From assembly GCA_022730455.1 (NCBI GenBank), contig DZDI01000010.1, positions 1 to 40,454 of the forward strand: a stretch of DNA of 40,454 nt, given 5' to 3'. Positions 1-33,777 of this stretch are shown piece by piece. A program made the position numbers and the translations under genes. Each line of letters begins with the position of its first letter. Position 1 is the stretch's first letter. This stretch comes from Phycisphaera mikurensis. Lineage in GTDB: Bacteria > Planctomycetota > Phycisphaerae > WQYP01. The notes beneath the pieces are model-generated. The model saw only the letters and a program-made list of their open reading frames with translations, made no database searches and was not told where the DNA came from.

Positions 1-102
1 AAAAAAAGTTGCCGCCTGATAAGCTTCATCCACAATATTTGACGGTAGCCCCGGGAACATACAATGACGACGAGCGACAAAGACCACGGCCCCTTAGCCC
101 CC

Positions 103-241
103 GCCCCGCAGGGTGTGCCGCAAACCCCACGTCTGCGGCGTTCTCGGACTCATCTTCACCAGAGTCGCCCTCGGCCCGTCGCCTTGTATCCGGGGCGTTT
201 CCGCCACATCGCTGTCTTGCTATTACTTGGACAGACTCCTA
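103..241 (-). repeat. Dispersed intergenic repeat, copy A (long architecture)
   Basis: Reverse complement reads AGGAGTCTGTCCAAGTAATAGCAAGACAGCGATGTGGCGGAAACGC...GGCGACTCTGGTGAAGATGAGTCCGAGAACGCCGCAGACG...TTTGCGGC, collinear with the copy at 26401-26539. Confidence 0.85.
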
Positions 242-4248: not shown

Positions 4249-4305
4249 AAATTCCTTTTTTCAACCCAATCACGAAATTCATCCCGGCCATATACCCGAA
4301 TGACG

Positions 4306-4320
4306 CTTGGACAGACTCCC
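4306..4320 (-). repeat. Terminal fragment of dispersed repeat (copy F)
   Basis: CTTGGACAGACTCCC; 14 bp identical to the repeat terminus CTTGGACAGACTCC. Confidence 0.5.
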
Positions 4321-4740: not shown

Positions 4741-7293
4741 ATGTCCACTGTTCATCAGTTTGTGGTAGTACCGGCCGTACCTGAAAGCCTTTCTGCATTA
4801 CATGACCTGGCTTACAACATCTGGTCGTTGTGGAAATATGACGCCGTTAGTCTTTTCAATCGGCTGGATCCAGATTTATGGGAGAAGACCGACCATAATC
4901 CCGTCGCTTTGCTTAATTTGGTTGGCCAGGAAAAGCTGCAGGCGGCCGCACTGGATGACGGCTTCCTGGCTCACTACAACCGCGTGGTGACGGATTTTCG
5001 TTATTACATGCAGGTGCCTACTTGGTTCAGCCTCAATCATCCGGGAAGCAAGGCCCAAATAGCCTATTTCTCGGCTGAATATGGCCTCCATGAATCTTTG
5101 CCCATTTATTCGGGCGGCTTGGGCGTCCTGTCCGGCGATCATATGAAAAGTGCCAGCGAACTCGGACTTCCTCTGGTTGGCGTGGGGCTTCTCTATCGGG
5201 ATGGGTATTTTCACCAGCGTCTGAATCCTGACGGTTGGCAACAGGAACTTAATCCTCAAAATAATTTCTTTTCCATGCCTCTGAAACTCTGTGTCGGCCC
5301 CGATCAGCAACCGGTTCGCACTTTCGTGGACTTGCCCGGTTCGCGCGTCAATATTCAGGTTTGGAAGATCATGGTGGGGCGCGTCACCATCTACGCCATG
5401 GACACTAATGTGCCCGATAACCGCCCAGAAGATCGTGAGATTACGGCTCGACTCTACGGCGGCGATCAAGAAATGCGTATGCGCCAGGAAATCGTGCTTG
5501 GCATCGGCGGCATCCGGACCCTCGCTGCGCTGGGCATCAAGCCGACGGTTTGCCATATGAACGAAGGGCATTCAGCCTTCCTCGCGCTGGAGCGGTGCCG
5601 GGTGCTGATGGAAGAGGGCAAAATGTCATTTGCGGAAGCCCGCGAACTTGTCGCCGCCAGCAACGCCTTTACAACGCACACGCCGGTACCAGCGGGCAAC
5701 GATCATTTCCCGCGTGAAATGATTGAGCATTATTTCGCTGGTTATTACTCAAAGCTGGGCATCTCAATGGATGAACTGCTGGACCTGGGGCGCATCAATC
5801 CCGCCGACACGCATGAGGGGTTTGGCATGACGACGCTTGCACTCCGCATGGCATGGCACTGCAATGGTGTGAGCAAACTCCACGGTGAAGTGTCGCGGCA
5901 TATGTGGCAGCGAATCTGGCCTGAGGTACCGCCGCAGGAAATTCCTATCACTCACATTACCAATGGTGTCCACACCCAATCGTGGATTTCGGAAGGGTCT
6001 GCCCGGTTGTACCAGGAATACCTAGGTGCCAACTGGCTTGAACGCCCGGCTGACCACAGCGTGTGGATACGAACCGACAAAATTCCCGATTCTGAACTCT
6101 GGCGCGTGCATGAGCGGCGCAAAGAACGCCTCATCGGTTTCGTTCGTCAGCGCTTCGGGGACCAAATGAGACGCAGCGGTGCCGTGGCGGTGGAAATCGG
6201 GCGAATTGACGAATTGCTCAATCCTCGAATACTCTTGATTGGCTTCGCTCGGCGGTTCGCGACCTACAAACGTGCCACGCTTCTGCTTCGTAACATTGAC
6301 CGACTGCTGAAATTATTGCGCGATACCGAACGCCCGGTGAATTTTCTTTTTGCGGGCAAGGCCCATCCGCGCGATGATGGCGGCAAGCACTTTATTCAGG
6401 ATATTTATCGTTTTTCGCAGCGTGAAGATGTGCGCGGACGCATCTTCTTCCTTGAAGATTATAATATTGATATCGCCCGCCACATGACTCAGGGTGTCGA
6501 TGTGTGGATGAACACGCCGCGCCGACCCATGGAAGCTTCCGGTACCAGCGGTATGAAAGCGGCAATTAACGGCGTGCTCAATTTGAGCATTCTCGATGGC
6601 TGGTGGTGCGAGGCCTACGACGGTGAAAACGGCTGGGCTATCGGCAGTGGTGAAGATTACGGTAACGATGACTATCAGGATGACATTGAATCGCGGCGTC
6701 TCTTTGATATCATCGAAAAGTCGGTCGTACCGCTCTACTACGATCGCAGCCTTGACGGCCTGCCTCGCGGTTGGATCAAACGGATGAAAAACTCCATCCG
6801 CACCATTTGCCCGGTCTTTAATACCAACCGCATGGTGCAGGAATACACGGATAAATTCTATACCCCTGCCGATGCGGCCTTCTGGCAGCTTGGCCAAGGG
6901 CACGGGGCCGGTGCTTCGGCATTGGCGGATTGGCGTCGGAAGATGCGCGACAATTGGAGCGGTGTGCAAGTTCGTGACATTCAGGCGCACATCGATGGTG
7001 TGGTTAAGGCCGGTGAAAGCGTCAAGGTGTACGCAACTGCTGTTTTGGGTGATATCCCGCCGGACCATGTTCGCGTTGAACTTTACTACGGGCCTATCGG
7101 CGCTTCCGGCACCATCCAAAAAGCCAGCGTGCAGGGAATGGCAATGGGAGCCGCCATTGAGAACGGCGTTTATCAGTACGTCGGTGCAATCCGTGCAGCG
7201 GATTGCGGGCAACAGGGCTATGCGGTGCGTATTGTGCCTGAAAACCCCAATATTGACCTGCGTTTAGAGCCGCAGCTTATTCGTTGGGGCTAA
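4741..7293 (+). CDS. glgP: Alpha-glucan (glycogen/starch) phosphorylase with DUF3417-type N-terminus
   Basis: ORF 4717-7293; ATG at 4741 preceded by AAAAGGAG; motifs AYFSAEYGLHESLPIYSGGLGVLSGDH, EASGTSGMKAAINGVLNLSILDGWWCEAYDGENGWAIG. Confidence 0.95.
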   Translation: MSTVHQFVVVPAVPESLSALHDLAYNIWSLWKYDAVSLFNRLDPDLWEKTDHNPVALLNLVGQEKLQAAALDDGFLAHYNRVVTDFRYYMQVPTWFSLNHPGSKAQIAYFSAEYGLHESLPIYSGGLGVLSGDHMKSASELGLPLVGVGLLYRDGYFHQRLNPDGWQQELNPQNNFFSMPLKLCVGPDQQPVRTFVDLPGSRVNIQVWKIMVGRVTIYAMDTNVPDNRPEDREITARLYGGDQEMRMRQEIVLGIGGIRTLAALGIKPTVCHMNEGHSAFLALERCRVLMEEGKMSFAEARELVAASNAFTTHTPVPAGNDHFPREMIEHYFAGYYSKLGISMDELLDLGRINPADTHEGFGMTTLALRMAWHCNGVSKLHGEVSRHMWQRIWPEVPPQEIPITHITNGVHTQSWISEGSARLYQEYLGANWLERPADHSVWIRTDKIPDSELWRVHERRKERLIGFVRQRFGDQMRRSGAVAVEIGRIDELLNPRILLIGFARRFATYKRATLLLRNIDRLLKLLRDTERPVNFLFAGKAHPRDDGGKHFIQDIYRFSQREDVRGRIFFLEDYNIDIARHMTQGVDVWMNTPRRPMEASGTSGMKAAINGVLNLSILDGWWCEAYDGENGWAIGSGEDYGNDDYQDDIESRRLFDIIEKSVVPLYYDRSLDGLPRGWIKRMKNSIRTICPVFNTNRMVQEYTDKFYTPADAAFWQLGQGHGAGASALADWRRKMRDNWSGVQVRDIQAHIDGVVKAGESVKVYATAVLGDIPPDHVRVELYYGPIGASGTIQKASVQGMAMGAAIENGVYQYVGAIRAADCGQQGYAVRIVPENPNIDLRLEPQLIRWG

Positions 7294-7400
7294 GAGTCTG
7301 TCCAAGTAATAACAGAGCTGCGATGTGCAGCAAACACCTCGTCTGCGGCGTTCTCGGGCCTCGACGACTCATCTTCACCAGGAGTCTGTCCAAGTAAGGG
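7293..7400. repeat. Dispersed repeat, copy B (compact architecture)
   Basis: Left end GAGTCTGTCCAAGTAATAACAGAGCTGCGATGTGC, an inverted right-part segment CGTCTGCGGCGTTCTCGG...GACTCATCTTCACCAG, then a second direct copy of GAGTCTGTCCAAGTAA (7294-7309 and 7382-7397). Confidence 0.85.
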
Positions 7401-11853: not shown

Positions 11854-11908
11854 CGAGAACGCGTTTCCGGTGCATCGCAGCCTTGCTATTACCTGGACAG
11901 ACTCCTAT
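11854..11908 (-). repeat. Dispersed repeat, copy C (compact architecture)
   Basis: CCGAGAACGCGTTTCCGGTGCATCGCAGCCTTGCTATTACCTGGACAGACTCCTAT. Confidence 0.8.
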
Positions 11909-26200: not shown

Positions 26201-26402
26201 CCGATTAACAGCCGATGCACTTGCGTTTGATGCGCAGCGGCAGATAGCCAAGGCGTACAGCGCTGCGGGTCGTGACGCGCGCATCACCACCCCCGATGGC
26301 AAAATCAATGCCGCCGCGCGTGAAATTATCTGGCGGCTGGGTAAATCGTCGCAGAGCGCCATCACCTTGATCCAGCCGCGTGCCAGTGGCTCCGTGCCAT
26401 AG
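23217..26402 (+). CDS. LptC/LptA (OstA)-like LPS export protein, unusually large
   Basis: ~1060 aa; single N-terminal TM (LLIYIVSLALVVGVFQWV); beta-rich OstA/LptC-like pattern (GDYGDVSVDQLGG..., LTSRGQVLVRGDRLVFSGRRLTCELN); Pro/Ser-rich linkers; directly downstream of kdsD-kdsC. Confidence 0.65.
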   Translation: MLVRRLLIYIVSLALVVGVFQWVRTRFFVSPMTSGGRRLKPVAIPSGTGGSNLVIVDRSNTGQLLYVLRFRRAIPKGRGQYHLIRPRMKFYSGKNNAVLVTSDYGDVSVDQLGGPLSNQVYPRKGRLFGHVKITLGPVKSFVKGAVHRQKGQYRITLSRPIDFNYQQGLLTSRGQVLVRGDRLVFSGRRLTCELNIAQKKLDYLQIAHGDYLTIKDINAAAANGSSAVKPHVRPKPSPSLHDTHASPTARPGQSGHQPPPPVPSLPATPRPPVMAAKPPWAGTVYGLVFTEQVRVNIGVEQLAAHRLRLYFSSARRLRGNAADNAKASSVQTAAAAVPTQPSPPASHSSTTPASASPPGKRTVKEQNLVVHWKGPLVLRPVRSRRVNLLNPQDVILQAFGRSHAPVVMHDGAARVGYASMVRYHVATRRLRMDATGLAPAKFVDAQLGTVTCRKLLYRANSDRIVLTGPGQAIYRGKKSIKNQWNGTWQKRMQLTMARSTGGKSQIKSLRLSGQSTFYNALFKIRAQTMHALFAAASKGNTVLRQFTAHGHVHLQSSVGPPSAKSRRYDTLDANSLLLSTIVNQQTHTRQPSSLYAAGAVNVVFYQTGKALTSGMNTGAQPSASAVGASHRLYHLRAQYLRAAIEKSSHSTSPGAKASPTQILSSGRFTVGGFHAWRHVSLTISGGAQRIQATCSDLRGNRDTKLATLTGNSAAKTPARIMESDNWISSEKIQLNGASQDLNIPGAGQLYLTSGGRRRKPTHLMLSWNGRMYFRNQLGVATFFSHVVARLVGQPRRKSRLSAPVLRVVLAGRKKGRLHVSEIYAFTTGKGQHVQAEDASYNSAKLIDTRLYIKCHRLRYNAEKQHLLVAGKGRLSLENYRRTPAPTGRHQPARRGQSAFAWQKALDYRAATGRLMLSGGVRLVYRPMQPFVLSRSIAGAYTGPNKGLILLDASKLIAQLLRAGKTPSGGVALGMGGPAKLKSVHAYHAALELSGARLTADALAFDAQRQIAKAYSAAGRDARITTPDGKINAAAREIIWRLGKSSQSAITLIQPRASGSVP

Positions 26403-26539
26403 GAGCCTGTCCAAGTAATAGCAGAGCTGCGATGTGCCGGAAACGCTCAGCTGCAAGGCGTCGGGCCGACGGCGACTCTGGTGAGGATGAGTCCGAGAAC
26501 GCCGCCGACGGGGTGTTTGCGGCTTACCCTTCGGGCAGC
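26401..26539 (+). repeat. Dispersed repeat, copy D (long architecture)
   Basis: AGGAGCCTGTCCAAGTAATAGCAGAGCTGCGATGTGCCGGAAACGC...GGCGACTCTGGTGAGGATGAGTCCGAGAACGCCGCCGACGGGGTGTTTGCGGC; starts inside the stop codon of the upstream gene. Confidence 0.85.
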
Positions 26540-26632
26540 ATGTCTTTCGTCCGGTACCGCGCTGGCGGGCATGGCCATCATGGCCCGGTCGATAAACCAA
26601 ATGAGCCTTTGGCCAGTTGCCTGATGTAATAA

Positions 26633-33302: not shown

Positions 33303-33721
33303 GGAGTCATTATACCTCTGTTGGCCGTCATTTTGCCACTTAACCTGAAAGTGAATCCGGGATAGGAAACCATGATTTTTGGCTACTTCCTGCCATCTAT
33401 TGGATGAAACACCGAAAAAACCGCTGGATTTTTGGGACAGGTTTCCAGTGCGTTCCGTTGTCCTCCGTCGAATACGACGACGGCATTCAAAACCGCAACT
33501 TATGGAAGTGGCGCGGTTAAGGAAGTCGATTCTCAGTCGCCGGTGAAACCGCGCTTGGTCATAGGCGTCGTCGGAAAGTTCGAAGAACTCAATTAGAAAT
33601 CCGGTTTCTGCGTGGGTTAAAACCCGGCGGGATGGAAGCGTAATAGATTCAAACGACGTTTGTGGATCAAGCCAGTACGTGGGTCCCAGATGAGAGGCGT
33701 TGGCCGTCGCATCAGCGATTT

Positions 33722-33777
33722 GGGGCCAAGAGCATTTCCGGCACATCGCAGCTCTGCTATTACTTGGACAGGCTCCT
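33722..33777 (-). repeat. Dispersed repeat, copy E (compact architecture)
   Basis: GGGGCCAAGAGCATTTCCGGCACATCGCAGCTCTGCTATTACTTGGACAGGCTCCT; reverse complement matches left end of copy D. Confidence 0.8.

Follow-up and report, generated by a model that had tools for sequence, protein, structure and literature searches.

A high-copy intergenic repeat of a Planctomycetota genome is probably a decayed IS1182-type MITE whose folded core lies between exchangeable ends

The window analysed here, a 40,454-nt stretch of DNA that is contig C225 of a Planctomycetota genome (394 contigs, 3.23 Mb, 93% complete), contains a repeat dispersed between its genes, which raises the question of whether this repeat is a MITE or REP-like element, a mobile terminator or attenuator, or a structured RNA, the readings offered in the initial annotation. 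The end module on which that annotation was built was recovered at 26401 (+), 103–241 (−), 7293 (+), 11861–11907 (−) and 33712–33777 (−), together with the small terminal fragment that it had placed near 4306–4320, and the second tip of copy B was found beyond its list. A 34-bp end pattern with up to three mismatches matched three times in the window and not at all in shuffled sequences, and a 17-bp tip pattern matched seven times against 0.03 expected. The right module reported as common to copies A and D was likewise recovered (82 nt, 89% identity). Every window copy lies between called genes, as had been proposed, and copies A, B and D do start at a stop codon or 20 bp from one, in the orientation of the gene. 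The repeat is larger than had been described and all of the window copies are truncated (Table 1), copy B, which begins at the TAA stop of the upstream gene, being a rearranged derivative.

Table 1 Positions of repeat copies and their parts in the window, with examples of family B from the same genome (G000).
Feature	Position	Strand	Description
Copy A	26401–26555	+	left 155 of 271 positions of the type-A MITE, without the right end; HMM model 2–155, E 9.8e-42
Stop codon at copy A	upstream gene stop at 26402	+	first G of copy A completes TAG
Hairpin module M in copy A	26433–26526	+	covariance model R1, 72.5 bits, E 9.5e-16
Copy D	53–241	−	hybrid element; HMM model 2–138, E 2.1e-38
Copy D, type-A part	241–115	−	left end and arm of type A
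Copy D, family B part	114–53	−	62 nt identical to the right half of C210:34048–34322 (IS630-type family B)
Hairpin module M in copy D	114–208	−	R1, 81.3 bits, E 5.1e-18
Copy B	7292–7397	+	left end, inverted internal fragment (7324–7381 on −), second tip (7378–7397); from reading of the sequence and HMM model 2–77 (+) and 78–126 (−)
Copy C	11861–11907	−	terminal 45 positions only; HMM model 1–45, E 5.5e-8
Copy E	33712–33777	−	terminal 64 positions only; HMM model 1–64, E 8.7e-11
End-tip fragment	4303–4319	−	17-bp tip pattern, 3 mismatches
Family B example	L208:1501–1774		
Family B example	C210:34048–34322		
Family B example	window 53–114	−	

Copies outside the window, in which both ends are seen, define an intact type-A element of ~271 bp (262–303 bp) that is bounded by GGAGYCTGTCCAAGTAATAGCA and its inverse and has TIRs of 18–21 bp reading GGAGYCTGTCCRAGTAAT... 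It contains no transposase gene, the longest closed ORF being 17 aa in the consensus and 17–61 aa in single copies. The repeat is not confined to the window: copy A gave 46 BLAST matches across the genome, and a 15-bp tip core with up to two mismatches marked some 200 ends (103 + 106, against 6 + 6 for the reversed pattern). A 687-kb sample of the genome held 52 merged element intervals, a few of which belong to a second family (family B, below), and six full-length type-A copies; most copies are cut at one side. Palindromes of 48 bp, which consist of TIRs only, and of 90 bp, as well as a copy of ~165 bp, are also present and look like template-switch or deletion products. Loose pairing of TIRs gave many false pairs and was dropped. 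Since many contigs end within 200 bp of an element copy, the repeat seems to limit assembly and to add to the fragmentation of the genome.

Among relatives, the element is carried by the Planctomycetota MAGs WY1.bin118 (same genus) and WY1.bin60 (same family, other genus), and the tip, at up to two mismatches, occurs in 21 of 27 relatives of the family. This census counted 220 ends in one congener and ~45–65 in several others, with 0–1 per genome and strand in the control.

A partner for the element was found in the relative G006, in which an IS1182-family transposase of 483 aa (NF033551, 347.9 bits; cut-off 270) lies between two type-A tips separated by 1.73 kb. Homologues of this transposase with 60–70% identity and the same tips are present in G003, G004, G015, G017, G020 and G027, and every intact tip pair of these IS1182 elements has CTAG on both sides, the element of G004 being degraded at one end. 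More distant homologues (26–41%) had no type-A TIRs. The TIRs of the MITE match those of the IS1182 elements of G006, G015, G017 and G027 over 17–21 bp, including 21 of 21 positions with G017, and the MITE TIRs of G002 and G016 keep the left/right asymmetry of the insertion sequences of G015 and G027. Comparison of the MITE and IS1182 interiors revealed nothing significant in common, and no IS1182 transposase was found in the window's own genome at its 93% completeness. The repeat has defined TIRs, which are also those of an IS1182-family parent, hundreds of copies and lineage-specific bursts; together these features bear out the MITE reading, and there is good support for a MITE whose partner is of IS1182 type.

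Other candidate parents in the window's own genome were rejected: none of its DDE_Tnp_1 and DDE_3 genes bears type-A TIRs, and an element on C188 (locus L048) has only a stray type-A tip nearby and no type-A ends of its own. The transposase gene at this locus (L048:113–1411) gave a weak DDE_Tnp_1 match and appears IS701-like by eye. In G003 and G020, the IS1182 copy occupies one common locus with common flanks and is broken by two stops; the occurrence of the same broken copy with identical flanks (L168, G003:C74; L169, G020:C55) in MAGs of two genera suggests shared or misbinned contigs.

With genes called by a simple hexamer caller written for the analysis, the elements were found to avoid genes: called genes cover 3.1% of element bases, compared with a coding share of 84%, and contain 2 of 64 ends. 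Read outward from either end, the flanks begin with C-T-R-G and have a random sequence after that. At five of the 64 ends, a host TA followed by the first G or A of the element completes a stop codon exactly (~0.8 expected, P 0.0013). Copies therefore start at stop codons because of insertion at TA, which accounts for most of the stop-codon pattern that had been noted and does so with no need for a terminator function. The left and right flanks of long elements are CTAG-like and mostly differ, with a 4-bp match in 6 of 33 against 3.0 expected. Past 4 bp, the flanks showed no further palindromy that would point to stem-loop replacement, and no empty site was found for the MITEs nested in a shared flank in G002. 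Five MITE copies of G002 (L157, L159, L188, L198 and L204) have common flanks of 10–16 bp (CGCGGCCACGAG / CTATGCTGGCCGGCT) and then diverge, which would fit movement of a longer unit or targeting of a small palindromic repeat by the MITE. Type-A tips also surround unrelated interiors at L163, L165 and L150 (136–138 bp and 241 bp), and the two short MITEs among these (136–138 bp) are flanked by CTAG at each end, in contrast to most 276-bp elements.

The initial annotation had further pointed to hairpins in the right module. These are part of the left arm of the 271-bp element, and the cut copy in which they were described (26401–26539) folds no better than shuffles (z = +0.19). The type-A element can be aligned with its own reverse complement over its whole length, and at full length it folds as one structure (z = −6.85 as DNA and −6.70 as RNA). 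Alignment of 21 full-length elements from seven genomes gave a three-arm structure in which 95.8% of cells are paired, against 37–42% when slid, and 19 pairs are changed on both sides, against 4–8 for slid partners. The interior of the element consists of a conserved hairpin module of ~100 nt, module M, of which there are one or two per element: elements of 161–172 bp have one module, and those of 270–290 bp have two arms. The paralogy of the two arms is clear in G035, where they are inverted duplicates, weak in type A and undetectable in the others compared. Across 20 aligned modules, two-sided changes occur in 22 of 25 pairs, 87% of cells pair against 30–45% when slid, and the covariation score is 0.535 against 0.05–0.14 when slid, whereas the inner positions CTGC, GT, CC and GC hardly vary between families of the class. 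Judged by shuffle and slide controls, covariation is strong in both the full-length element and module M, which lends the structural reading partial support; a search of Rfam 15, however, gave no match on the element, even at E ≤ 1. Symmetric changes in both arms of a stem can arise without selection, by quasi-palindrome correction, and the two-sided changes seen here could also be caused by copying between stem arms. Selection on module M for an RNA or protein-binding role is possible.

Module M is not tied to one kind of end. A covariance model built from the left arm (R1) was searched in 53 genomes of the class and matched in 20, with no match in the other 33. Matches were obtained in G005, G009 and G013, all of which lack the type-A tip at up to two mismatches, and in other families of the class (G032, G035, G041 and G049). 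Where both ends are visible, the module lies inside an element with matched TIRs, and these TIRs differ between elements: they are of IS1182 type, of IS630 type, TCCCAAAACGTAATGACCCC (G032), AGAGCCTGTTTGGAAA (G005) and of two kinds in G009. One core is found with about ten kinds of ends, for which insertion-sequence parents were matched to tips A and B. Family B, a second MITE family of 275 bp with the TIR CTAGTGCTCTGTCAC..., has ~119 ends in the window's own genome against 0 in the control. An IS630-family element with matching tips lies on contig C49 (NF033545, 116 bits; cut-off 100), and its transposase is split over two reading frames. The left arms of family B and type A are homologous, with R1 matching family B at E 1e-7 to 5e-6, and A/B hybrids with mixed ends are present; copy D of the window also joins the two families. 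In G035, eight copies with cores that are 93–97% identical in all pairings carry four classes of ~20-bp tips (86–100% identity within classes and 45–73% between them); both tips of each copy match at 20–21 of 22 positions, and core similarity is independent of tip class. As read from these sequences, ends appear to have been exchanged on a conserved core, most clearly in G035. The combination of a conserved folded core with many end exchanges is unusual for MITEs.

The explanation that we favour, at a probability of roughly 0.88, is that the repeats are decayed copies of a MITE of ~271 bp. An IS1182-type transposase acting in trans would have put the MITE into CTAG-like, TA-centred sites and would then have been lost from the lineage, after which the copies would have decayed by truncation and template switching. 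The foldback element might gain a new tip on one side, and this tip might be copied across the foldback stem to the other side by template switching or repair, so that one core would be handed from one transposase family to another. We infer this tip-exchange step from its end products; the hybrids, the short palindromes and the covariation of the stems would all be in keeping with copying across the stem. In a broader and more tentative version, to which we give somewhat less than even odds, a structure-constrained module has spread through the class by changes of TIR (IS1182, IS630 and others), with tips copied via the foldback and possibly with a selected function.

Module M might instead be primarily a functional structured RNA or DNA element under selection, for which the TIRs are a changing means of dispersal. 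The extensive stem covariation and the near invariance of the inner words CTGC..GT and CC..GC argue for such a function, as do the retention of the core while the tips change and the existence of elements with one and with two modules. We nevertheless consider it doubtful, because the window's own genome has mostly truncated copies that were not maintained, a constant gene neighbourhood was not seen, Rfam offers no counterpart and the symmetric stem changes are possible without selection. It is less probable still that module M is itself mobile and inserts into the apex of existing hairpins, with the tips being target sequence. Insertion into the apex of TIR hairpins would give the same pattern as tip exchange; the ~48-bp TIR-only palindromes and the 90-bp palindrome could be such hairpins, and IS1272, of the IS1182 family, recognises and replaces stem-loops without target duplication (PMC5678879). 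However, tip and core travel together, since tip classes are found again with the same core at several loci, and ~200 ends of the window's own genome share one tip. In addition, tips A and B equal the TIRs of insertion sequences, and the short palindromes are equally well explained as deletion products.

It is very unlikely that the repeat has been selected at gene ends as a mobile terminator or attenuator of transcription. Although a gene 3′ end is no more than 30 bp away from 11 of the 64 ends, against about 6% expected, and a full-length transcript would be predicted to fold strongly, five of these 11 ends are explained by insertion at a stop-codon TA, the commonest class, with 24 of 64 ends, points to a gene 5′ end at a distance of over 100 bp, and the fold of copy A does not exceed that of shuffles. 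The REP-like reading, in which palindromes are spread by a tyrosine (RAYT) transposase, is scarcely credible: the repeat is intergenic, palindromic and of high copy number, and REPs have been reported in Planctomycetes (PMC3733652), but it is 271 bp long rather than 20–40 bp, its long TIRs are of DDE type, and its parent, which bears these TIRs, encodes a DDE transposase.

An IS1182-type MITE is a kind already known. MITEPye1 of Paracoccus yeei, an IS1182-family MITE of 159 bp with 1–3 copies per chromosome and 4-bp direct repeats (PMC11578231), is like the type-A MITE short, intergenic and without an ORF, with 18-bp IS1182-type TIRs and a long stem-loop, whereas the type-A MITE is 271 bp long, has ~200 ends, shows no clear direct repeats in its long form and combines a two-arm covarying core with exchangeable TIRs. 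Palindromic targets or replacement of stem-loops are known for some members of the IS1182 family (PMC5678879, PMC8027508); ISPsy36 targets GGCC (PMC8027508), and IS1272 transposes by replacing inverted repeats (PMC5678879). The latter resembles the type-A parent in transposase family, in palindromic targets and in that no clear target duplication is seen, but it is autonomous and replaces its target stem-loop, whereas the autonomous relatives here, if intact, are flanked by CTAG at each end. MITEPsy3 of Pseudomonas syringae pv. actinidiae (102 bp, 78 copies), as far as the available part of its description goes, is likewise a high-copy bacterial MITE with a lineage-specific burst and mobilisation in trans, but it is shorter, has one TIR type and is described there with no mention of a modular core (PMC6053426). 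ERIC/RU-1 (127 bp), RU-2 (168 bp) and similar enterobacterial repeats are small MITE-like units found in many intergenic regions, as is the type-A MITE, while sequence and host are unrelated (PMC2759123).

No literature on Planctomycetota MITEs or on exchange of MITE ends was matched by title or abstract, and the literature covered, which lies mostly outside subscription journals, described no such modular MITE, no comparably high copy number, no conserved covarying module and no exchange of ends across unrelated transposase families. Among the ERIC/RU repeats, we know of no common core with several unrelated TIRs. MITEs are normally seen as derivatives bound to one transposase that fade once this transposase is lost. 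If confirmed, the exchange of ends would provide a way for a non-autonomous element to survive the loss of its partner transposase, and how MITEs acquire new ends would become directly testable. Module M, covarying, present in several families and absent from Rfam, is a target for RNA and protein-binding work. Separately, a bacterial small SRP RNA gene (Rfam RF00169, 76 bits) was found at L033:252–350 (−), ~110 bp from a full-length copy.
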